DNA of 64,000 nucleotides. Origin: Glaciihabitans arcticus (GTDB lineage Bacteria > Actinomycetota > Actinomycetes > Actinomycetales > Microbacteriaceae). Position 1 is the first letter of the stretch, and the number at the start of each line of letters is the position of its first letter. Positions 362 to 51,309 of this stretch are shown in pieces. The position numbers were made by a program, and so were the translations under genes. The stretch spans positions 2,046,001 to 2,110,000 of the forward strand of contig NZ_SISG01000001.1 of the NCBI RefSeq assembly GCF_004310685.1, given 5' to 3'. The notes under the pieces were generated by a model. The model did not search any database and was not told where the DNA came from. It saw only the letters and a program-made list of their open reading frames with translations.

Positions 362-1396
362 ATGGTGCTATTCGCAGGCGTGACCGATGTCGTGAAGTGG
401 GTGCAGGCGACGAGCCTCGAGACGATCCTCGAGGGAATGGTCGAGTACCTCGAGGCGGACTTCCGCCGCTGGCCCGCGTTCGAGAAGGCTCCGCGGGTCG
501 CGAGTCACTCCGATGTCGGGGTCATCGAGCTGATGCCGACGAGCGACGGCGAGCTCTATGCGTTCAAGTACGTCAACGGGCACCCCGCCAACCCGCTTCG
601 CGGACTCCAGACCGTGACGGCCTTCGGCGTGCTCGCCGACGTCGCCAGCGGTTACCCCCTGCTCGTAGCCGAGATGACGGTGCTCACCGCGCTGCGCACC
701 GCCGCGACATCCGTTCTGGCCGCGAAGTACCTGGCCCGCCCCGATGCGACGACCATGGCCCTCATCGGAACCGGCACGCAGGCCGAGTTCCAGGCCATCG
801 CTTTCCGCACCGTTCTGGGGATCAACACTCTGCGCGTGTTCGACACCGATCCTGCGGCCGTCGCCAAGCTGCGCCGCAACCTCGAGCCGCTGGGCTTCGA
901 GATCCACACCGCGGCGAGCGCGGCCGAGGCGGTCGACGGCGCGCACATCGTCACCACCTGCACGGCCGACAAGGCGAACGCCACGATCGTGACCGCCGAC
1001 ATGGTTCAGCCCGGCCAGCACCTCAACGCGATCGGCGGCGACTGCCCCGGCAAGACGGAGCTCGACGCCACCATCCTCGTGCCAGGCAGCGTCTTCGTCG
1101 AATTCACCCCGCAGACCCGCATCGAGGGCGAGTTGCAGCAGGTGTCCCCCGACTTTCCCGTCACCGAGCTGTGGAACGTCATCACCGGGGACGCGGCGGG
1201 CCGGTCATCCAGAGATCAGATCACCGTCTTCGACTCGGTCGGGTTCGCCATCGAGGACTTCACCATGCTGCGCTACCTGCGCGACAGCATCGTCGGCACA
1301 GCCTTCGCGCGCGACATCGACCTCGTCGTCGACCCCGACGACCCAAAAGACCTGTTCGGCCTCGTCGCGGGCAGCAACGCCCCCGTCCCTGCCTGA
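362..1396 (+). CDS. ocd: Ornithine cyclodeaminase
   Basis: This encodes a cytoplasmic NAD-dependent enzyme of the ornithine cyclodeaminase/mu-crystallin family, expected to convert L-ornithine to L-proline and ammonia. Visible features are VASHSDVGVIELMPTSDGE and YAFKYVNGHPANP near the N-terminus, the Rossmann glycine motif ALIGTGTQAEFQ in the middle, and GGDCPGKTELD further on. From the ATG the protein is 344 residues, close to the usual 350. An in-frame TTG at 320 would add 14 residues that do not look like the family. No clear Shine-Dalgarno precedes either start, so the exact start is uncertain. Its stop overlaps the start of the next gene (TGATG), so the two are translationally coupled. 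Confidence 0.9.
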   Translation: MVLFAGVTDVVKWVQATSLETILEGMVEYLEADFRRWPAFEKAPRVASHSDVGVIELMPTSDGELYAFKYVNGHPANPLRGLQTVTAFGVLADVASGYPLLVAEMTVLTALRTAATSVLAAKYLARPDATTMALIGTGTQAEFQAIAFRTVLGINTLRVFDTDPAAVAKLRRNLEPLGFEIHTAASAAEAVDGAHIVTTCTADKANATIVTADMVQPGQHLNAIGGDCPGKTELDATILVPGSVFVEFTPQTRIEGELQQVSPDFPVTELWNVITGDAAGRSSRDQITVFDSVGFAIEDFTMLRYLRDSIVGTAFARDIDLVVDPDDPKDLFGLVAGSNAPVPA

Positions 1397-2307
1397 TGCA
1401 GGCGCCCTCCGCGGTCGTCATGATCCGGCCGCACCACTTCACCCCGAACCCGGCGACCGCTGCCGACAATGCATTCCAGGTGGATGTCCCGGCCGACGAT
1501 TCACGCCTGCTCGCAGCCGAGGCGTACCGCGAGGTCACGGCCGCGAGTGTCGCGCTGGCCGACGCCGGGATCACCGTGCACCTCTTCGAGGACGAGGACA
1601 CGACTACCCCCGACAGCGTGTTTCCGAACAACTGGTTCTCGACCCACTCGGGCGGACACGTTGCGATCTACCCCATGCACTCCCCCAGTCGGCGCACCGA
1701 GCGGCGCAGTGACGTCATCGAGTTGCTGAAGCACGACTACCGCGTGCAGGACGTCATCGACTATTCGGGGCTCGAGTACGACGATGTGTTCCTCGAGGGC
1801 ACGGGTGCCATGGTCCTCGACCACGCCTCGCGCATCGCCTACGCGGCGCGCTCCAACCGCGCGGACCCCATCGCCCTCGAGCGCTTCTGCACCAACTTCG
1901 GCTACGAGCCGATGGTCTTCGATGCTGCCGACAGCGACGCAGTGCGGATCTACCACACCAATGTCCTGATGTGCATCGCGACCGACTTCGCCCTGATCGG
2001 TGCCGAGCTGCTGACCGATGAGCGTCGCCGCCAGCAGGTGCTCGACCGCATCGCGGCACCCGGCCGCGAGATCATCACCCTGCGTGAAGACCAGGTGCGC
2101 AACTTTGCGGGCAACGCGATCGAGCTGCGTGGGAGCGCCGGCCGGGTGCTCGCGCTGTCGTCGCGGGCGTACCGCAGCCTCGATCCCGCGCAGATCGGGA
2201 CCATCGAGCAGTACGCGCGGCTCGTGCCACTGGACGTGCCGACCATCGAACTGGCCGGAGGCTCCGTGCGGTGCATGCTCGCCGGCATCCACCTCGACCG
2301 CCGCTAG
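1396..2307 (+). CDS. ctlX: CtlX-type citrulline utilization hydrolase (amidinotransferase fold)
   Basis: The 303-residue protein belongs to the arginine deiminase-related/amidinotransferase superfamily. Key segments are the substrate-binding FPNNWFSTH, the acidic EYDDVFLEGTGAMV, the catalytic histidine region RIYHTNVLMC, and a C-terminal GGSVRCML whose Cys is the expected nucleophile. CtlX-type proteins act on citrulline and are often found with ornithine cyclodeaminase, as here, where the ATG overlaps the ocd stop by one base. A coherent pathway would be citrulline to ornithine to proline. Activity on another guanidino or ureido substrate cannot be excluded from sequence. The open frame extends far upstream, but that part only overlaps ocd in another frame. 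Confidence 0.82.
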   Translation: MQAPSAVVMIRPHHFTPNPATAADNAFQVDVPADDSRLLAAEAYREVTAASVALADAGITVHLFEDEDTTTPDSVFPNNWFSTHSGGHVAIYPMHSPSRRTERRSDVIELLKHDYRVQDVIDYSGLEYDDVFLEGTGAMVLDHASRIAYAARSNRADPIALERFCTNFGYEPMVFDAADSDAVRIYHTNVLMCIATDFALIGAELLTDERRRQQVLDRIAAPGREIITLREDQVRNFAGNAIELRGSAGRVLALSSRAYRSLDPAQIGTIEQYARLVPLDVPTIELAGGSVRCMLAGIHLDRR

Positions 2308-2394
2308 CCGAGGGCAGCGCTAGCTGAGGTCGGGGCCTCGTCCTAGGCTGGAGCGACATGCAGGGCCGGCTGCTCGAGGGGCGAGGAGTCGAGA

Positions 2395-2736
2395 ATGGCC
2401 ATGCAGCATGCTGTTGTGGATGGTGCGGCGGCAGCCGAGCGTGCGAGATCCGGTCACGTGAGCGGGTGGCATCCCGTGCTCGCAGCTGTCGAGGGCGAGC
2501 CGGGCACGTGGTTGATGGTGGACGAGGGGCGCGGCCGCTGCTACGGGGTGATCCGGCTGCTGCGGATCCGCGGGGAGGCAGGCTACCGCGCCGTGACCTG
2601 GGCGGAGAAGAGCGAGGACCGGCAGCTGATCGGCTATTTCCGGAGCCTGCGCGCCGCGTGCGCCGCCGCCCACAACAACCTGCTGTCGACTTACGGCAAC
2701 CCCGGCCCGCCCAACGGTGGAAGGGTGAGCCGCTGA
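2395..2736 (+). CDS. Hypothetical protein, 113 residues
   Basis: I do not recognise this small soluble protein. It starts at an ATG with a good AGGAG Shine-Dalgarno seven bases upstream. There is no signal peptide or membrane span. The middle holds a Trp/Gly-rich, probably beta-rich stretch (GTWLMVDEGRGRCYGVIRLL) followed by YRAVTWAEKSEDRQLIGYF, ending in a helical segment and a Pro/Gly tail. It lies on the same strand as ctlX after an 87-base gap and ahead of a small membrane protein. Nothing ties it to either neighbour. It is probably real because of the ribosome-binding site and codon use. Confidence 0.6.
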   Translation: MAMQHAVVDGAAAAERARSGHVSGWHPVLAAVEGEPGTWLMVDEGRGRCYGVIRLLRIRGEAGYRAVTWAEKSEDRQLIGYFRSLRAACAAAHNNLLSTYGNPGPPNGGRVSR

Positions 2737-2762
2737 TCAGGTCGCTGTGAGATAGTGCGCGA

Positions 2763-3041
2763 ATGAGCGACTCAACAGCGACCCCGAGCGACCCGGCCGA
2801 GGGCCGCCGCCGCAACCTCATCGGCACATGGGCGTTCGGCTTCGCCCTCGCCGCGCTGGTCGCCGGACTCGGCGGGCAACTCACACTCACCCTCAACCTG
2901 AGCGCCATCGCGATCTTCGCGGGGTTCGTCGGATTCTTCGAAGGTCAGCGTCGCGGCCTGCGCCGACTGCTCTCGATCCTGGCGATGGCCATCGGCCTGG
3001 TCACCCTGACGCTGATGGCGACGCCTACACCTTTCGCCTAG
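2763..3041 (+). CDS. Small membrane protein, 92 residues
   Basis: This is a predicted inner-membrane protein of unknown function. After a polar N-terminus (MSDSTATPSDPAEGRRRN) it shows three hydrophobic segments, roughly residues 20-38, 44-60 and 69-87, with a basic loop EGQRRGLRR between the second and third. It has no recognisable motif. It is convergent with the VIT-family gene downstream, with 10 bases between the stops. Confidence 0.6.
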   Translation: MSDSTATPSDPAEGRRRNLIGTWAFGFALAALVAGLGGQLTLTLNLSAIAIFAGFVGFFEGQRRGLRRLLSILAMAIGLVTLTLMATPTPFA

Positions 3042-3051
3042 CGGCTGCGCT

Positions 3052-4113
3052 CTAACCGATGCTCGTGCCGAACAGCAGCCCGAGCAGATAGGTCGCGCCT
3101 GCGGCTCCGAAGCCGATCGCGAGCTGCCGCAGGGCACGCAGCAGGGGCGGTCCGCCCGAGAGCAGCCCGACGACGGCACCGGTGCCGAGCAGCGCGATGC
3201 CCACGAGGGCAGCCGCGATGATGACCGCGGAGAACCCGGTCGCGCCGAACAGGTAGGGCAGCACGGGGATGATCGCGCCCGAGGCAAAGAACAGGAAGCT
3301 CGAGACGGCCGCGCCCATCGCCGAGCCGATCTCCTCGTGCTCAGCGACCGCATCCGCGGGGCGCTCGATGCTGAGGTCGCGCATGACCTCGGCGGCGTGC
3401 GCCTTCGACTCCTCCTCGCTCATGCCGCGAGCGCGGTAGACGAGCGAGAGTTCGTTGGCGTCGACGTCGAGAAACTCGAGCGCCTTCTGCGCGTCGGGGT
3501 TGGGGTTCGATGCCGCGAGCAGTTCCCGCTGCGAACGCACCGAGACGAACTCGCCGGCGCCCATCGAGAGGGCGCCCGCGAGCAGGCCGGCAATGCCGGT
3601 GGCGAGGATGACGGGAGTCGACACCCCGGTCGCGCCGATGCCGAGCACCAGCGCAAGGTTGCTCACGAGCCCGTCGTTCGCACCGAACACCGCCGCCCGG
3701 AACGTGCCCGACAACCGCTGGCGCCCGCGGGCGGCGAGGGCACGCACGACCTCCTCGTGGATCTGCTCGTCGGCCGCCATGGTCGCGGTCGCGTCGACGT
3801 CATCCTCATAGGGCGATCGCGCCTCGGCACGCTGGGCGAGCGCGAGAACGAAGACCGATCCGAAGCGACGGGCGAGCCAACCGAGCATACGCGTGCGGAT
3901 ATCCCCGCGCTGTGGGCGACCGACCCGATCGCCGAGCAGTCCGAGCCAGTGCGACTCGTGGCGGGCCTCCGCGTCTGCGAGGGCGAGCAGGATGTCCCGC
4001 TCCTCCCCCTGGCGTCGGCTCGCAAGGTCCCGGTACACGGCGGCCTCCGCGCGCTCGTCCGCGAGGTACCTGCGCCACTTGCGGAGGGTGGCTGCGGAGG
4101 CGGGCGCGCTCAC
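3052..4113 (-). CDS. VIT1/CCC1-family transporter with N-terminal ferritin-like domain
   Basis: The 353-residue protein has two parts. The first ~150 residues are helical and ferritin/rubrerythrin-like, with Glu and ExxH elements (DERAEAAVYRDLA, LALADAEARHESHW). The C-terminal part is a VIT1/CCC1 membrane domain with FGANDGLVSNLALVLG, GAGEFVSVRSQREL and several hydrophobic helices. This architecture resembles membrane-bound ferritins of the MbfA type, which move or detoxify iron or manganese. The GTG start overlaps the stop of the aldose epimerase gene (GTGA), so the two are translationally coupled, although no functional link is apparent. The metal specificity cannot be read from sequence. 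Confidence 0.85.
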   Translation of the reverse strand: MSAPASAATLRKWRRYLADERAEAAVYRDLASRRQGEERDILLALADAEARHESHWLGLLGDRVGRPQRGDIRTRMLGWLARRFGSVFVLALAQRAEARSPYEDDVDATATMAADEQIHEEVVRALAARGRQRLSGTFRAAVFGANDGLVSNLALVLGIGATGVSTPVILATGIAGLLAGALSMGAGEFVSVRSQRELLAASNPNPDAQKALEFLDVDANELSLVYRARGMSEEESKAHAAEVMRDLSIERPADAVAEHEEIGSAMGAAVSSFLFFASGAIIPVLPYLFGATGFSAVIIAAALVGIALLGTGAVVGLLSGGPPLLRALRQLAIGFGAAGATYLLGLLFGTSIG

Positions 4114-5012
4114 GCGGCGTACCGCACGCCCCAGCGGGCGACCCAGGTCTCCCCGGGCTCCAGCCAACGCAGGCCCTTGCCGCTGTTGAACGCGTCGGGC
4201 GCGGCGGTCATCGGCTCGAGGGCGACGGCGACGCCGGTGCCGCCATCCTTGGGGAAGTCGCGCGGCGTGTAGACCTGCAGGTATCCGAAGCTCTCGTCCT
4301 GCCAGACCTCGAGGCTGCGACCGTCTGGCGCGCTGAGCACGCTGCTGGTCTCGCCCGCCGGAAGCCCGCCGAGCGTCACGTTGAGGTCGATCTCGCCGAG
4401 CACACGACCGCCGCGCAGGTCGAAGTCGCCGTCGACGGGCACCTCGTCGACCGGAAGCAGCAGGTCGTTCATCGAGAAGCGGGTGGACGCGCCGACGGTC
4501 AGCGTGAGATCTGCGGAAGGAACATCCCCGATACGGAAGTAGGGATGGGCGCCGATCGCCACGGGCGCCTTCGCCGTACCCGCGTTGAACAGTGTGTGCG
4601 TCACCGCGAGACCGCCGTCGACGAGCTCGTAGCGCACGCTCGTGTCGAGCAGAAACGGGTAGCCGTGCTGCGGGAACACTCCCGCCGACAGCGTGATGGC
4701 CGACTCGCTCTGCTCGGCGACCCGGTAGGGAGTGTTGCGCAGCAGGCCGTGGGTGGCCTGCTTGCGGCCGGGATCCGTGAGGTCGAGCTGCTGGCGCTTG
4801 CCGTCGAGTGACCATGCGCCCTCGGCGATGCGGTTGGGCCACGGGACCAGGACGATGCCGCAGCCCATGGGCGGGCCATCCTGCTCATCGAAGGGCTCGG
4901 TCAGGTCCACGCCGTCGATCGAGAAGTGACGGATGCCCGCTGCCAGCTCGGTGATGATTGCGCGAGACGTGCCGCGGGTGAGGGTGAACTGCTGACCGGT
5001 GGGAGCACGCAT
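4110..5012 (-). CDS. Aldose 1-epimerase family protein
   Basis: This is a cytoplasmic galactose mutarotase-like beta-sandwich enzyme, 300 residues, that would interconvert alpha and beta anomers of aldoses. Supporting motifs are VPWPNRIAEGAWSLDG near residue 60, THGLLRN with the catalytic-region His, AIGAHPYFRIG, and the late acidic segment VALEPMTAAPDAFNSG that carries the general-base Glu. The length is standard. It is the upstream gene of a two-gene unit with the VIT-type transporter. With galT/galK a few kilobases away it may serve galactose metabolism, but it is not in that operon. Confidence 0.88.
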   Translation of the reverse strand: MRAPTGQQFTLTRGTSRAIITELAAGIRHFSIDGVDLTEPFDEQDGPPMGCGIVLVPWPNRIAEGAWSLDGKRQQLDLTDPGRKQATHGLLRNTPYRVAEQSESAITLSAGVFPQHGYPFLLDTSVRYELVDGGLAVTHTLFNAGTAKAPVAIGAHPYFRIGDVPSADLTLTVGASTRFSMNDLLLPVDEVPVDGDFDLRGGRVLGEIDLNVTLGGLPAGETSSVLSAPDGRSLEVWQDESFGYLQVYTPRDFPKDGGTGVAVALEPMTAAPDAFNSGKGLRWLEPGETWVARWGVRYAA

Positions 5013-7555: not shown

Positions 7556-8380
7556 CTAATCGTCAGCAAGTACGACGCTAAGACCGGCGAGTCGCAGGCG
7601 GGTGACGATCTCGGGTGGGGCGTCGCTCGCCGTGACGAGTGTGTCGAAGTCGGAGATCGGTCCCACGCTGCCGAGCCGCGCCCGACCGAGCTTCGACGCG
7701 TCGGCGACGAGGATGGGGCGCTCGGCGGAGAGCACCATACGGCGCTTCACCTCGGCCTCGGGGAGGTTCACGTTGGTGACGCCGCGATCCGGGTCGACGC
7801 CGTTACAGCCGATGAACGCGAGGTCGGCGCGCAGCGTTTCGAGGAACGGCGAGGCGAACGGATTCACGAGCGAGTGCTGCAGCGGGCGGAGGGTGCCGCC
7901 GGTCACGACGACGGTGAAGCGGGGCATCGCCGCCTCCAGGGCGAGCGCGATGGTGAGCCCGTTGGTGACCACGAGCACGTCGTCGAGGTCGCGACGCTCC
8001 ACGAGCGCGTGCGCGACCGCGAGGGCCGTGGTGCCCACGTCGAGCAGCACACTCTGCCCGCGCTGCACGAGCCCGGCTGCCCGGCGCCCGATCGCGCGCT
8101 TGGCGGCCGCGTGCTCTTCGAGGGACGCCTCGAACGACTGCTCCCCGAGCCCCTGCGACCGCGGCATCGCGCCACCGTGCACGCGGATGACACTGCCTGC
8201 GGCCTCGAGTGCGGCGAGATCCGACCGCACGGTGACTCCGCTCACTCCGAGTTCGAGAGCCGCATCGGTCACCCGCAGAAACCCGCGCTCGGTGATCATG
8301 CGCAGCACGCGGTCGCGGCGGGCGAGGGCGGGAGCCGCGTCATCCACCCTTTCAAAAGCTTTCACAATTGAAAGTACCAT
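7556..8380 (-). CDS. DeoR/GlpR-family sugar-phosphate regulator
   Basis: The protein has an N-terminal DeoR helix-turn-helix (RDRVLRMITERGFLRVTDAA, then LGVSGVTVRSDLAALE) and a C-terminal DeoRC sugar-phosphate sensor (LLDVGTTALAVAHAL, VVTNGLTIALAL, ADASKLGR). It diverges from galT-galK with 18 bases between the annotated starts, so it probably represses the galactose genes. The annotated ATG gives 274 residues. However, a perfect inverted repeat lies inside its first codons, and internal GTG starts (8366-8364, or one just before DDAAPALARRD) would free that site to act as an operator. The start should be treated as unsettled. Confidence 0.85.
   Translation of the reverse strand: MVLSIVKAFERVDDAAPALARRDRVLRMITERGFLRVTDAALELGVSGVTVRSDLAALEAAGSVIRVHGGAMPRSQGLGEQSFEASLEEHAAAKRAIGRRAAGLVQRGQSVLLDVGTTALAVAHALVERRDLDDVLVVTNGLTIALALEAAMPRFTVVVTGGTLRPLQHSLVNPFASPFLETLRADLAFIGCNGVDPDRGVTNVNLPEAEVKRRMVLSAERPILVADASKLGRARLGSVGPISDFDTLVTASDAPPEIVTRLRLAGLSVVLADD
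8359..8374. promoter_or_regulatory. Putative operator of the gal genes
   Basis: CTTTCA and TGAAAG form a perfect 6-bp inverted repeat with a 4-bp AT-rich spacer, lying 25 bases before galT and at the extreme 5' end of the divergent DeoR gene. The location suits an operator for that regulator. No binding data can be inferred beyond position and symmetry. Confidence 0.45.
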
Positions 8381-8398
8381 TTTCGATATCGTAATTGG

Positions 8399-9475
8399 AT
8401 GCCCATCACCTCGGAATCGACGACGCTTGCTGACGGCCGCGAACTCATCTACTACAACGATGCCGACTCGACCCTGACCGGCGCTCGTGCTCTGGATGCC
8501 CGGCTCCTCGATCCCCGCCCTGACACCGCCACCATGCGCCAGGACGTGCTCACGGGCGAATGGATCTCGATCGCCGCGGCTCGCCAGAACCGCGCCTTCC
8601 TGCCACCGGCCGACCAGGATCCGCTCGCGCCGACGACCCCGGCGAACCCCTCTGAGGTGCCGAGCAACTACGACGTGGCGGTGTTCGAAAACCGCTCCCC
8701 CTCCTTCGGTCCGGAGGTCGGCTCGCTCGACCTCTCGGGCCTCGCCCTGAACCGCACGGCACCGTCATTCGGACGCTGCGAGGTGGTGTGCTTCAGCCCC
8801 GATCACGAGGGCTCGTTCGGGTCGCAGACGCCCAGCCGCGCCCGCACGATCATCGAGGCCTGGGCGGATCGCACCGCGTTCCTCTCCGCGCTGCCCGGTG
8901 TCGAGCAGGTGTTCCCGTTCGAGAACCGCGGCGAGGCGATCGGCGTGACGCTGCTGCACCCGCACGGCCAGATCTACTCCTACCCCTACGTCACGCCGCG
9001 CACCCAGCGCCTGGTCGAGTCGGTCGCCGCCGTGCCGACCCTGTTCGAGGACATCCTGGCGAGCGAGCGCTCATCGGAGCGCGTCGTGCTCTCCGGCGAG
9101 CACTGGACGGCCTTTGTGCCGTTCGCGGCACGTTGGCCGATCGAGGTGCACATGCTGCCGCACCGGCACGTGCCCGACTTCGCGGCCACCTCTGCGGAGG
9201 AGCGCGACGAACTCGCTGACCTGTACTTGAAATTATTGCGGGGGGTCGACGCGTTGTACCCGACGCCGACGCCGTACATCGCGGCCTGGCACCAGGCTCC
9301 GGTGAACGTTGCCCGCTCCGAGATCCGTCTTATGCTGCAGCTGACCTCGCCGCGCCGGGCGGACAACAAACTCAAGTACCTCGCCGGCTCCGAAGCGGCG
9401 ATGGGAGCGTGGATCGGCGACGTGACGCCGGAGGCCTCAGCAGCATTTATCAGGGAAGGCATTGCCCGCGCATGA
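8399..9475 (+). CDS. galT: Galactose-1-phosphate uridylyltransferase
   Basis: GalT exchanges UMP between UDP-glucose and galactose-1-phosphate in the Leloir pathway. The 358-residue protein shows the HIT-superfamily active site LLHPHGQIYSYPY with the nucleophilic His, a VFENRSPSFG motif, and the second histidine-rich region VHMLPHRHVPDF. The start ATG has no good Shine-Dalgarno, so it may be leaderless or begin slightly downstream. Its stop overlaps the galK start (ATGA), so the two are one operon, probably controlled by the divergent DeoR regulator. A galE gene is not present in this window. Confidence 0.94.
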   Translation: MPITSESTTLADGRELIYYNDADSTLTGARALDARLLDPRPDTATMRQDVLTGEWISIAAARQNRAFLPPADQDPLAPTTPANPSEVPSNYDVAVFENRSPSFGPEVGSLDLSGLALNRTAPSFGRCEVVCFSPDHEGSFGSQTPSRARTIIEAWADRTAFLSALPGVEQVFPFENRGEAIGVTLLHPHGQIYSYPYVTPRTQRLVESVAAVPTLFEDILASERSSERVVLSGEHWTAFVPFAARWPIEVHMLPHRHVPDFAATSAEERDELADLYLKLLRGVDALYPTPTPYIAAWHQAPVNVARSEIRLMLQLTSPRRADNKLKYLAGSEAAMGAWIGDVTPEASAAFIREGIARA

Positions 9476-48223: not shown

Positions 48224-48268
48224 GTTTGTTAGTAAACCTTACGAACAAACTTTACCGCAAGGTTTGTT
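48224..48268. promoter_or_regulatory. Probable ROK-repressor operator
   Basis: GTTTGTTAGTAA and TTACGAACAAAC form 12-bp arms (one mismatch) around ACC at 48224-48250, beginning next to the ROK start codon. A further GTTTGTT half-site follows at 48262-48268. This resembles the TTAGTAAAC-type sites of actinobacterial ROK repressors. The rest of the gap to 48504 shows no other clear site. Confidence 0.72.
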
Positions 48269-48504
48269 TGGACGCTTTACATACTCGTTACATGACGAAA
48301 CGCATCCGAAATCCGTGCCGACCACCCCTGTCTACCCCGGCTCGACATTAGGAAACCTTCATCTCGAGCGGCCACTCACCCGGGATTCCGGGGCAGGGGC
48401 CGCGCATCCACAGGTCTCTCACAGGGGAACCAAAGCTAATTCTTCGCGGGTCGGGCATGCTTGGTGACAAGTCACCCATCACTCCCGCAACAGGAAGCGA
48501 CCCC

Positions 48505-48945
48505 ATGAAGACCTCGACGAAAAAGACCACGTTCGCCGTTCTGGCCGCCGTCTCCCTCCTCGGCACGGTGACCGGTTGCGCCGCCGCCGCGACCCCCACC
48601 GACACCGGCTCCGACGCGGGCACCGACACCGGCAGCGCGAGCGACGCCCCCTACGCCGACGGCACGTACGAGGCCTCGGGCGACTACCAGTCCCCCAACG
48701 GCATCGAGACCGTCGATGTCACCATCACCCTCGCGGACGACACCGTCACCGACGTTCAGGTCGTCGGCCACGGCCAGGCACCCGAGTCCCGCGAGTACCA
48801 GGGACAGTTCATCGACGGCATTGCGGCCGAGGTCGTGGGCAAGGACATCGATGAGATCTCCGTCGACCGCGTGGCCGGGTCATCCCTCACCAGCGGCGGC
48901 TTTATGAAGGCCCTCGATGCGATCAAGGCTGACGCCCTCGCCTAG
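48505..48945 (+). CDS. FMN-binding domain lipoprotein
   Basis: This 146-residue lipoprotein has a signal ending in LGTVTGC (Cys about 29), a Thr/Ser/Asp linker, then an FMN-binding domain of the NqrC/RnfG type (YADGTYEASGDYQSPNGIET, VTITLADDTVTDVQVV). In this family a Thr near the C-terminus is covalently flavinylated; VAGSSLTSGGFMKAL contains the candidate Thr. It would be an extracytoplasmic electron carrier. It overlaps the ApbE gene by 29 bases. The ATG follows CAGGAAGCG. Confidence 0.88.
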   Translation: MKTSTKKTTFAVLAAVSLLGTVTGCAAAATPTDTGSDAGTDTGSASDAPYADGTYEASGDYQSPNGIETVDVTITLADDTVTDVQVVGHGQAPESREYQGQFIDGIAAEVVGKDIDEISVDRVAGSSLTSGGFMKALDAIKADALA

Positions 48946-49807
48946 GCTCCCCCACCGGCTGGCCTTCGAGGCCATCGGGGCGCCGTGGAGCATCGAGACG
49001 GCCGAACCCGTCGACCCTGAGCTCGCGGCGGCCATCGACGCACGCATCGAGAGCTTCGATCGCACCTGGTCGCGGTTCCGTGACGACTCACTCGTCTCCC
49101 GCATCGCGCGCGAGCCGGGCGTCTACCGGCTGCCGCCCGAGGCGGGTGCGCTGCTCGACGTCTATCGTGCGCTGTATGAGGCGACGGATGGCGCGGTCAG
49201 CCCGCTCGTCGGTCGATCACTCGAGCGGCTCGGGTACAACAGCGCGTACACCCTCCGTGACAGCGGCGAGCGCGGCCCCGCCCCCGAGTGGAGCTCAGCG
49301 CTCGCCTGGGACGGCGAGTCCCTCAGCGCACTCCGACCCGTCACGCTCGACGTCGGCGCCGCAGGCAAGGGCTACCTCGTGGATCTCGTTGCCGCCCTCC
49401 TGCGCGAGGCCGGCCACACCGAGTTCGTGGTGGACGCGAGCGGCGACCTCGCGCACGCGGGCTCGGAACACACCCGGGTCGGGCTGGAACATCCTCTTGA
49501 CGCCACAAAGGCGATCGGGATCGCCCTCGTCGGCAACCAGGCTCTCGCCGCCTCGGCCTCGAACCGCCGAGCGTGGGGAGACGGGCTGCACCACGTGATC
49601 GACGCGACGACCGGGCTTCCGACCAGCAACGTCATCGCGACCTGGGTCGTCGCTCCGACCGGGCTGCTCGCCGACGGTCTCGCGACCGGCCTGTTCTTCG
49701 CCCCGGCGGACTCCTTCTCGGCCCTGGGGCCGTTCGAGTGGGTTCGGATGTTCTCGACCGGTCGAGTCGAGCACTCGCCCCACCTGCAGGGAGAATTGTT
49801 CCTATGA
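48917..49807 (+). CDS. apbE: FAD:protein FMN transferase (ApbE)
   Basis: ApbE moves FMN from FAD onto a Thr of an acceptor protein, here probably the FMN-binding lipoprotein encoded just upstream. The 296-residue protein has FDRTWSRFRDDSLVSRIAR, GAVSPLVGRSLERLGY, VTLDVGAAGKGYLVDLVAAL, VDASGDLAHAG, and the Mg/FAD-binding HHVIDATTGLPTSNVIATW. It has no obvious lipobox, so it would be cytoplasmic or weakly membrane bound from this start. An AAGG precedes the ATG by six bases. Its stop overlaps the third gene (ATGA). Confidence 0.9.
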   Translation: MRSRLTPSPRLPHRLAFEAIGAPWSIETAEPVDPELAAAIDARIESFDRTWSRFRDDSLVSRIAREPGVYRLPPEAGALLDVYRALYEATDGAVSPLVGRSLERLGYNSAYTLRDSGERGPAPEWSSALAWDGESLSALRPVTLDVGAAGKGYLVDLVAALLREAGHTEFVVDASGDLAHAGSEHTRVGLEHPLDATKAIGIALVGNQALAASASNRRAWGDGLHHVIDATTGLPTSNVIATWVVAPTGLLADGLATGLFFAPADSFSALGPFEWVRMFSTGRVEHSPHLQGELFL

Positions 49808-51309
49808 GAAAAGCCAGCGGATTCCTCGGCGCCGTCACCATGTACAAGCTGGTGCTGGGGCTGCTCATCGCACTTTTCGCGCTCTCGCTCGTGCTGTCTC
49901 TTCTCGGGGTGCTGCCATATGCGCCGCTCGCGATCCTCGCCAGCTGGGCCGTCTCGGTCGGCGTGAGCGTGGGGTCGAGCTGGGCATTCGGCCGGGCGTT
50001 CGGCGCCAAAGCGCATCTCGAGTCGGCGGCCATCACCGGCCTGCTGCTGCTGTTCATCCTGCGCCCGGAGCTCTCCGTCGAGAGCCTCCTGATCCTCGCC
50101 CTGGCCGCGTTCCTCGCGAGCGCCTCCAAGTACCTGCTCGCGGTGCGCGGACGCCACATCTTCAACCCCGCTGCCATCGGCGCCGTGCTCGTGACCGCCA
50201 CGGGCCTCACCTTCAGCGGATGGTGGGTGAGCAGCCCGGCGATGCTCCCCCTCGTCGCGATCGGCGCCTTGCTCATCCTCTATCGCACCCGCCGCTTGGC
50301 GATGGGGCTGACCTTCATCGGCACGGTGCTCGTCATCGACGTGGTGCTGTCGCTGACCCGCGGCCTCACCGTTCCCGACGGGCTGAGCCTCGCCATCCTG
50401 GGTACGTCGACCGTGTTCTTCGCGGGCTTTATGCTGAGCGAGCCCCTGACCCTTCCGCCGCGCAGGATGCAGCAGCTCGCCCTCGCCGTCATCGTCGCGC
50501 TGCTGTTCGCGGTGCCGTTCAACCTGCTCGCCGTCTACTCCAGCCCGCAGCTCGCCCTCGTGATCGGCAACCTCTTCGCGTTCCTCGTCGGCCAGCGCCG
50601 CGGCCTGCGGCTCATCCTGCTCGAGAAGACCCAGCTCACCCCGACCTCGTGGGAGTTCAGCTTCCAGCCGTCGCGGCCCGTGTTCTTCCACCCGGGACAG
50701 TACATGGAGCTCGGGATCCCGCACGCGAGCGCCGACATCCGCGGCCAGCGTCGCATCTTCAGCATCTCCTCCGCGCCGGGCGAGGGCGCTCCCGTGAGCA
50801 TCGCCATCAAGGTGAGCCCGCGCTCGAGCAGTTTCAAGACGGCGATGCTCGCTCTCGAACCCGGCGAACGCGTCTACGCGACCTCGGTCGGCGGGGACTT
50901 CCTGCTCCCGAGCGACCCCGCCGTGCCCGTGCTCCTCGTCGCGGGCGGCATCGGCGTCACGCCGTTCGCGAGCCAGCTCGCGCACGCGACCTCGGCCGGT
51001 GAGCAGCGCGACATCGTGGTCATCTACGCCGTGGCTGCGGGCGAAGAACTCGTCTACGCCGAGCAGCTCACCGCGAGCGGCGCGCGCGTGCTCGTCGTGT
51101 GCCCCGAACCTCCCGTCGCGCTGCCTGAGGGCTGGGAGTACCTCGGCAGCCGCCGCATCGACGCCGACCTGCTGCGCGAGGCGGTGCCGGATCTCGCCGA
51201 CCGCCACGCCTTCGTCTCCGGCCCGCCCGCGCTCGTCACGGGAGTGCGCCAGGCCCTCCGCACGGAGAAGGCCCGACGCGTAACCACCGACTACTTCAGC
51301 GGCTACTAG
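49804..51309 (+). CDS. NqrB/RnfD-like membrane domain fused to a flavin reductase domain
   Basis: This 501-residue protein combines about 270 residues of membrane helices resembling NqrB/RnfD (VMYKLVLG-type start, KYLLAVRGRHIFNPAAIGAV, FFAGFMLSEPLTLPPRRMQQ) with a C-terminal ferredoxin-NADP reductase-like domain. The latter carries the FAD motif RRIFSISSAPGEG, the nucleotide motif LLVAGGIGVTPFASQLA and a terminal YFSGY. It would take electrons from NAD(P)H at the cytoplasmic side and pass them across the membrane to the flavinylated lipoprotein. The ATG overlaps the ApbE stop, making a compact three-gene module. Confidence 0.88.
   Translation: MRKASGFLGAVTMYKLVLGLLIALFALSLVLSLLGVLPYAPLAILASWAVSVGVSVGSSWAFGRAFGAKAHLESAAITGLLLLFILRPELSVESLLILALAAFLASASKYLLAVRGRHIFNPAAIGAVLVTATGLTFSGWWVSSPAMLPLVAIGALLILYRTRRLAMGLTFIGTVLVIDVVLSLTRGLTVPDGLSLAILGTSTVFFAGFMLSEPLTLPPRRMQQLALAVIVALLFAVPFNLLAVYSSPQLALVIGNLFAFLVGQRRGLRLILLEKTQLTPTSWEFSFQPSRPVFFHPGQYMELGIPHASADIRGQRRIFSISSAPGEGAPVSIAIKVSPRSSSFKTAMLALEPGERVYATSVGGDFLLPSDPAVPVLLVAGGIGVTPFASQLAHATSAGEQRDIVVIYAVAAGEELVYAEQLTASGARVLVVCPEPPVALPEGWEYLGSRRIDADLLREAVPDLADRHAFVSGPPALVTGVRQALRTEKARRVTTDYFSGY

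Follow-up and report, generated by a model that had tools for sequence, protein, structure and literature searches.

Within the window, the 64,000-nucleotide stretch of Glaciihabitans arcticus DNA analyzed here, three overlapping genes occupy positions 48505-51309. The coordinates and reading frames given for them in the earlier note, which was made from the sequence alone, hold, and the families can be named by Pfam and by a search of the genome. The genes and the intergenic element upstream of them are as follows:

48505..48945, + strand, 146 aa: FMN_bind lipoprotein gene (Pfam FMN_bind, alignment, motif tally, hhalign)
48917..49807, + strand, 296 aa: ApbE flavin transferase gene (Pfam ApbE; alignment with E. 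coli Ftp)
49804..51309, + strand: NqrB/RnfD-FNR fusion gene (PF03116, PF00175, AlphaFold models, fold searches)
48224..48280, no strand: palindromic operator-like element of the GTTTGTTAGTAAACCTTACGAACAAAC type, in the gap that separates the trio from a divergent ROK repressor gene

The lipoprotein and ApbE genes overlap by 29 bp (48917-48945), and the ApbE and fusion genes by 4 bp (49804-49807). In a profile search of the genome, which is 99.85% complete, the members of the trio are the sole FMN_bind match and the sole ApbE match. The upstream flank holds the ROK gene together with solute-binding-protein transport genes, while a convergent operon with another solute-binding protein lies downstream; all of these flanking genes look unrelated to the trio. 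The element at 48224-48280 is probably the operator of the divergent ROK regulator, and any effect of it on the trio would be hypothetical: of 72 loci, 18 have its core word TTGTTAGTA upstream of the trio, 18 have a ROK gene in that place, and 17 have both. Elsewhere in the window, a VIT1 match is observed at about 3079-3702 on the minus strand, inside a long open frame, and a second VIT1 match occurs elsewhere in the genome.

Recurrence of the three-gene neighbourhood

The earlier note had advised a search for the same neighbourhood in other Actinobacteria, and had stated that homologues never accompanying the fusion gene would refute it. This condition does not refute it: the complete trio is present in 77 of 81 loci (80 named loci plus the window), more than chance would give. 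Since the named loci were taken as the top 80 out of 226 relatives, this co-occurrence is measured among close kin. Seventy of the 77 trios are colinear by called genes and seven via profile hits. Three of the incomplete loci (L040, L064 and L105) are truncated where their contigs end, and the fourth, L102 (2369-3871 of a Saccharibacteria MAG contig), has the fusion without either partner within 2.35 kb upstream. Among the 70 loci with called genes, the ApbE-fusion overlap is 4 bp in 57, and the gap between the lipoprotein and ApbE genes exceeds 190 bp in three. The ApbE hit of L055 is divided between two frames. Two further arrangements were observed: ApbE and the fusion share one open frame in L100 (8255-11386, Pseudolysinimonas kribbensis), as a natural fusion or through a sequencing frameshift, and a tandem pair of FMN_bind lipoprotein genes (8082-9102) precedes the ApbE/fusion pair in L090.

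At the level of the family, the fusion is found in 118 of 299 genomes, every one of which also has an ApbE match (exactly one in 66 of them); the hypergeometric probability of this association over the 299 genomes is 1e-26, with relatedness ignored. FMN_bind hits undercount the trio lipoproteins, whose scores lie near the cut-off. In the class-wide sample, a fusion match is present in 19 of 296 genomes.

The trio is also complete in L089 (8642-11482, a Saccharibacteria MAG contig), which reads much alike under translation tables 11 and 25; its FMN protein has an N-terminal hydrophobic stretch and lacks the lipobox Cys. A tree groups both Saccharibacteria copies (L089 and L102), with their position among the Actinobacteria unsupported. 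Exchange with Actinobacteria and mis-binning are both possible origins of these copies.

Predicted features of the three proteins

The fusion protein and the gene segments that encode its parts are divided as follows:

about residues 1-265 of the fusion: NqrB/RnfD-like membrane domain
about residues 266-501 of the fusion: FAD/NAD(P)H reductase domain, with an invariant C-terminal Tyr
49930..50199, + strand: first half of NqrB/RnfD (PF03116 profile positions 39-128; SAAITGLLL and FNPA motifs; alignment with E. coli RsxD)
50251..50589, + strand: second half of NqrB/RnfD (PF03116 profile positions 178-286; FMLSEPLT; RnfD inter-half loop missing)
50935..51249, + strand: NAD(P)H-binding subdomain (PF00175), with GGIGVTPF

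The description of this protein as NqrB/RnfD-like helices joined to a reductase domain is borne out by a split PF03116 match, by PF00175 (4.5e-9, 37.4 bits) and by the predicted fold. PF03116 is absent from the hmmscan output for the window fusion protein, and appears in the genome search in two pieces that jointly reach 28.9 bits (cut-off 27.7); it is matched by 9 of the 18 members of the family alignment, the best at 2.5e-11 and the window protein not among the nine. Since hhalign matches the fusion profile weakly to E. coli RsxD as a lone sequence (probability 3%, E 0.013), homology to NqrB/RnfD rests on the motif alignment, the split PF03116 match and the predicted fold. The AlphaFold model of the membrane domain (pLDDT 90.8, pTM 0.88) retrieves 15 NqrB/RnfD entries at Z 20.0-23.6, the best being 8ahx_D (Z 23.6, rmsd 3.8, 246 aligned residues), and the next fold, that of the urea transporters, follows at Z 12.8; Foldseek gives 9eri_D at E 2.5e-6. 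Modelling in this way confirms a predicted NqrB/RnfD fold for the N-terminal domain. For the reductase half, Z scores of 24-26 are obtained against FAD domains of the flavohaemoglobin type and of NqrF (4eh1_A, Z 26.2, 223 aligned, rmsd 2.4; NqrF FAD domain 7qu5, Z 24.1, 231 aligned, rmsd 2.7). Eighteen aligned rows show no variation at the Arg and Phe of the R-x-F-[ST] FAD motif, at the GGxGxTP residues or at the C-terminal Tyr, and no 2Fe-2S domain is reported by Pfam in the fusion.

FNPA and TDP/SEP are 89 residues apart here, as against 164 in E. coli RsxD. What is missing includes the ATPL motif of RsxD, in agreement with the unmatched profile positions 129-177. The Thr of ATPL is the FMN-bearing residue of RnfD. 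Alignment thus indicates that the second covalent-FMN site of Nqr/Rnf has been lost from the fusion as a whole loop and is not just mutated. This agrees with the account of the NqrB/RnfD-like subunit in PMC10979944, according to which the flavinylation site is not conserved and the flavin of the partner may visit a non-covalent site. The absence of this loop, like that of a recognisable export signal on ApbE (below), goes beyond the earlier note.

The lipoprotein begins with a lipoprotein-type signal, MKTSTKKTTFAVLAAVSLLGTVTGC, with Cys25; the lipobox Gly24-Cys25 is nearly invariant in a 24-row alignment, lipidation being judged by eye and by hydrophobicity. A hydrophobic stretch of at least 1.6 is found at the start of all 73 lipoproteins assessed. 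As only 2 of the 73 have twin-Arg-like starts, Tat export was rejected and Sec is the likelier route. The protein matches Pfam FMN_bind at 2.1e-5 (25.5 bits, cut-off 22), and the profile of the family aligns with canonical FMN_bind proteins at an hhalign E of 6.6e-7. Because a profile search of the PDB returns no credible sequence relative of the family, the fold is deduced from Pfam and hhalign only.

The lipoprotein contains the motif DRVAGSSLTS, in which the predicted FMN residue is Ser127 (codon 48883-48885). In the profile alignment with canonical FMN_bind proteins, VDRVAGSSLTSGGF aligns gap-free with VDAISGATYTSEGY, and the residue flavinylated by ApbE is the last of D-x-x-[ST]-G-A-[ST] (PMC12052999); together these point to Ser127 and therefore not to Thr129. 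The Thr of SSLTSGGF, which the earlier note had put forward as the attachment site, lies two residues past the aligned position. FMN is predicted to be esterified at Ser127, although Ser126 could be the attachment residue instead. Both serines are kept in 78 of 78 homologues, and Thr129 is replaced once, by Ala in L039, in a tally based on the pattern SSLxSxGF, which all 78 meet. In the same tally, and differently from D-x-x-[ST]-G-A-[ST], position -1 is Ser in all 78 rows and position -3 is Ala or Gly in 69; Asp at -6 is found in 22, the window protein among them. The clade motif, [AGS]GSS, differs at -1 and usually at -3 and -6, so that a motif particular to this clade accompanies an ApbE that is equally its own. 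In published work, Thr is preferred by ApbE and Ser gives 10 to 55% less flavinylation (PMC12052999).

ApbE of the window matches Pfam ApbE at 3e-39. Three residues invariant in the clade ApbEs, a Ser, a His and an Asp, fall in the alignment on residues of the same kind in E. coli Ftp, and were matched by eye to the catalytic residues named for V. cholerae ApbE (PMC12052999). Even when the frame is extended to the preceding stop codon, the GAPW motif is preceded by only about 23 residues, whose hydrophobicity peaks at 0.59 versus 2.68 in E. coli Ftp. A value of 1.6 over 12 residues, the threshold and the gene caller both being home-made, is reached before the domain in 4 of 73 assessable clade ApbEs; of seven ApbEs beside canonical SGAT-type proteins, six fall below it and L122 above. 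The window ApbE looks cytosolic, with no recognisable signal peptide in its sequence. Most ApbEs are exported, and cytosolic exceptions exist, for example one serving a soluble fumarate reductase (PMC12052999). No title or abstract opening among the literature found describes a signal-less ApbE with an exported substrate; signal predictions are tabulated in the supplement of PMC8238504.

An ApbE with no recognisable signal peptide, paired with a presumed substrate that resembles a Sec-type lipoprotein, implies that flavinylation may precede export. In such a scheme, which we advance tentatively and regard as somewhat doubtful, cytosolic ApbE would, in this clade, esterify FMN to Ser127 of the pre-lipoprotein, and the protein would then be exported by Sec with the flavin attached. 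Were this so, extracellular FAD would no longer be needed, surface flavoproteins would be made in a second mode, and the divergent [AGS]GSS motif would be matched to a divergent ApbE subfamily. With this combination, where flavinylation takes place in Actinobacteria, and in what order, can be tested directly; the order relative to export is a modest testable question within a known system.

Proposed electron path and candidate acceptors

Collectively, gene order, families, predicted folds, conservation of active site and motif, and co-inheritance describe a compact module, and it is highly probable that the trio acts as an extracytosolic relay of the NQR/RNF-like type. NAD(P)H would reduce FAD in the C-terminal domain of the fusion at the cytosolic face, and electrons would traverse the membrane through the NqrB/RnfD-like domain, probably by a non-covalent flavin. 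They would then reach the FMN esterified to Ser127 of the surface lipoprotein, where it would have been attached by ApbE, and the lipoprotein would hand them to an acceptor encoded outside the operon. We infer the direction of flow, the donor, the acceptor, the formation of a complex and the covalent flavin from the protein families. Several observations speak against the relay: the motif diverges at -1 and mostly at -3 and has the -6 Asp in 22 of 78 homologues (the window protein included), ApbE shows no recognisable signal although its target looks exported, the lipoprotein family has no credible PDB relative, and in L102 the fusion stands without its partners in 2.35 kb upstream. The published system, the fold, the motif and the co-occurrence all agree with the module type proposed in the earlier note and with its likely job of passing electrons from NAD(P)H to a flavin at the surface, and this part of its interpretation stands; its Thr site is not supported, and for its suggestion of metal or quinone reduction no convincing local evidence is seen.

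No acceptor gene is conserved beside the trio: 37 of 81 loci is the most that any other cluster reaches, and in 67 of the 81 the flanks extend over the whole 10 kb in both directions. The most frequent neighbours include isocitrate dehydrogenase (37 of 81 loci, on the opposite strand), an acetyltransferase of the GNAT type (31), clusters of ROK and ABC-transporter genes (22-26) and Hsp20 (17). The window members of the first three groups were checked by Pfam, Hsp20 was named from sequence only, and several frequent clusters (e.g., 8 and 10) were left unnamed. Given this ceiling of 37 loci, our view is that the acceptor is diffusible or generic.

The trio could serve as a maintenance reductase, supplying redox equivalents to a generic acceptor in the envelope, be it oxidised envelope proteins, quinones or oxygen, through a diffusible or housekeeping partner; we give this slightly less than an even chance. 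It is favoured by the neighbour counts, the most frequent named cluster being on the opposite strand, and by the wide distribution of the fusion in the family (118 of 299 genomes). Canonical-type FMN_bind proteins, split off as better-scoring at E < 5e-6, a threshold chosen in this analysis, occur in 41 of the 118 genomes with the fusion and in 63 of the 181 others (odds ratio 1.0), a further point in its favour. The case is nevertheless argued by exclusion only. Mutual exclusion of the trio and canonical-type proteins was likewise considered and is not seen at this ratio.

A dedicated assimilatory ferric reductase, in which Fe(III) would be reduced by the surface FMN and then taken up, a role already suggested for those MsrQ-like clusters that hold VIT1, appears unlikely. 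VIT1 is present in 6 of 127 published NQR/RNF-like clusters (PMC8238504), the genome has two VIT1 matches of which one is in the window, and the MsrQ-like cluster of a relative (L114) carries VIT1; the window match, however, is about 45 kb away from the trio, and the recurrent neighbour clusters inspected, in which part of the ORFs are annotated, hold no recognised iron gene. An IdeR-type box with at most 9 of 19 mismatches is found in 50 of 72 trio regions versus 156 of 350 other upstream regions, but shuffled trio regions give a mean of 48.4 of 72 and reach at least 50 in 85 of 200 shuffles, and no trio upstream region has a site with fewer than 7 of 19 mismatches. Shared iron regulation of the trio was therefore rejected, the box being no closer to consensus than in shuffled copies.

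It is very improbable that the lipoprotein is not flavinylated at all, binding FMN loosely or playing another role while ApbE modifies something else: the divergent motif and the cytosolic-looking ApbE would fit, but the two genes are adjacent and the sole such matches in the genome, all 78 homologues keep Ser126-Ser127, ApbE retains the active-site residues at the aligned positions, and linkage of the trio is near complete.

Comparison with known systems

On family comparison, the trio is best assigned to the published NQR/RNF-like flavinylation system, so that its kind is already known. The system was described by Meheust et al. 2021 (eLife e66878, PMC8238504) in 127 clusters, mainly from Actinobacteria and CPR, and was later modelled by Huang et al. 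2024 (PMC10979944). That electrons flow one way, starting at NAD(P)H and ending on an extracytosolic acceptor, is proposed in the former and repeated as a proposal in the latter. The trio and this published system share ApbE, an exported FMN_bind protein and an NqrB/RnfD membrane domain joined to PF00175, and in both the NqrB/RnfD flavinylation site is not kept. Specifically, the fusion has an N-terminal NqrB/RnfD domain and a C-terminal NAD-binding PF00175, ApbE/FMN_bind genes lie within five genes with a signal peptide or lipidation site on at least one, and the flavinylation Thr is absent from the NqrB/RnfD-like domain. The trio differs in the motif [AGS]GSS, as opposed to [ST]GA[ST], in the wholly missing FMN loop and in the signal-less ApbE; these are details that published members may share.

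With the Nqr and Rnf complexes, the trio has in common the NqrB/RnfD fold, an NqrF-like reductase domain (Z about 24) and an FMN_bind partner; unlike them, it has no FMN-Thr loop and, by Pfam, no 2Fe-2S domain in the fusion, and presumably it does not pump ions. A complete Nqr or Rnf complex is ruled out, as PF02508 (NqrD/E, RnfA/E) has no match in the 99.85% complete genome, the control matching in 4 of 14 genomes. The actinobacterial MsrQ-like clusters (PF01794 plus PF00175, FMN_bind, ApbE; L114 and L117) follow the same logic and share the C-terminal reductase domain, but have a ferric-reductase-type membrane domain and an SGAT motif. An MsrQ-like system is ruled out here, since PF01794 has no match in the window genome and the fusion has the predicted NqrB/RnfD fold. 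The L114 cluster (1160-4301), in which MsrQ-like (PF01794/PF00175), FMN_bind (SGATYT) and ApbE genes lie beside a VIT1 gene, illustrates the connection to iron that has been published for MsrQ-like systems. With no second ApbE or FMN_bind match, no PF02508 and no PF01794 in the genome, deletion of the trio could have a clear-cut phenotype, which could help in the search for the acceptor.

The trio represents a published electron-transfer system in a clean and minimal form that is also common. As a discovery it is ordinary, bringing one correction (the predicted Ser127 site), one structural refinement (the missing loop) and one testable question.
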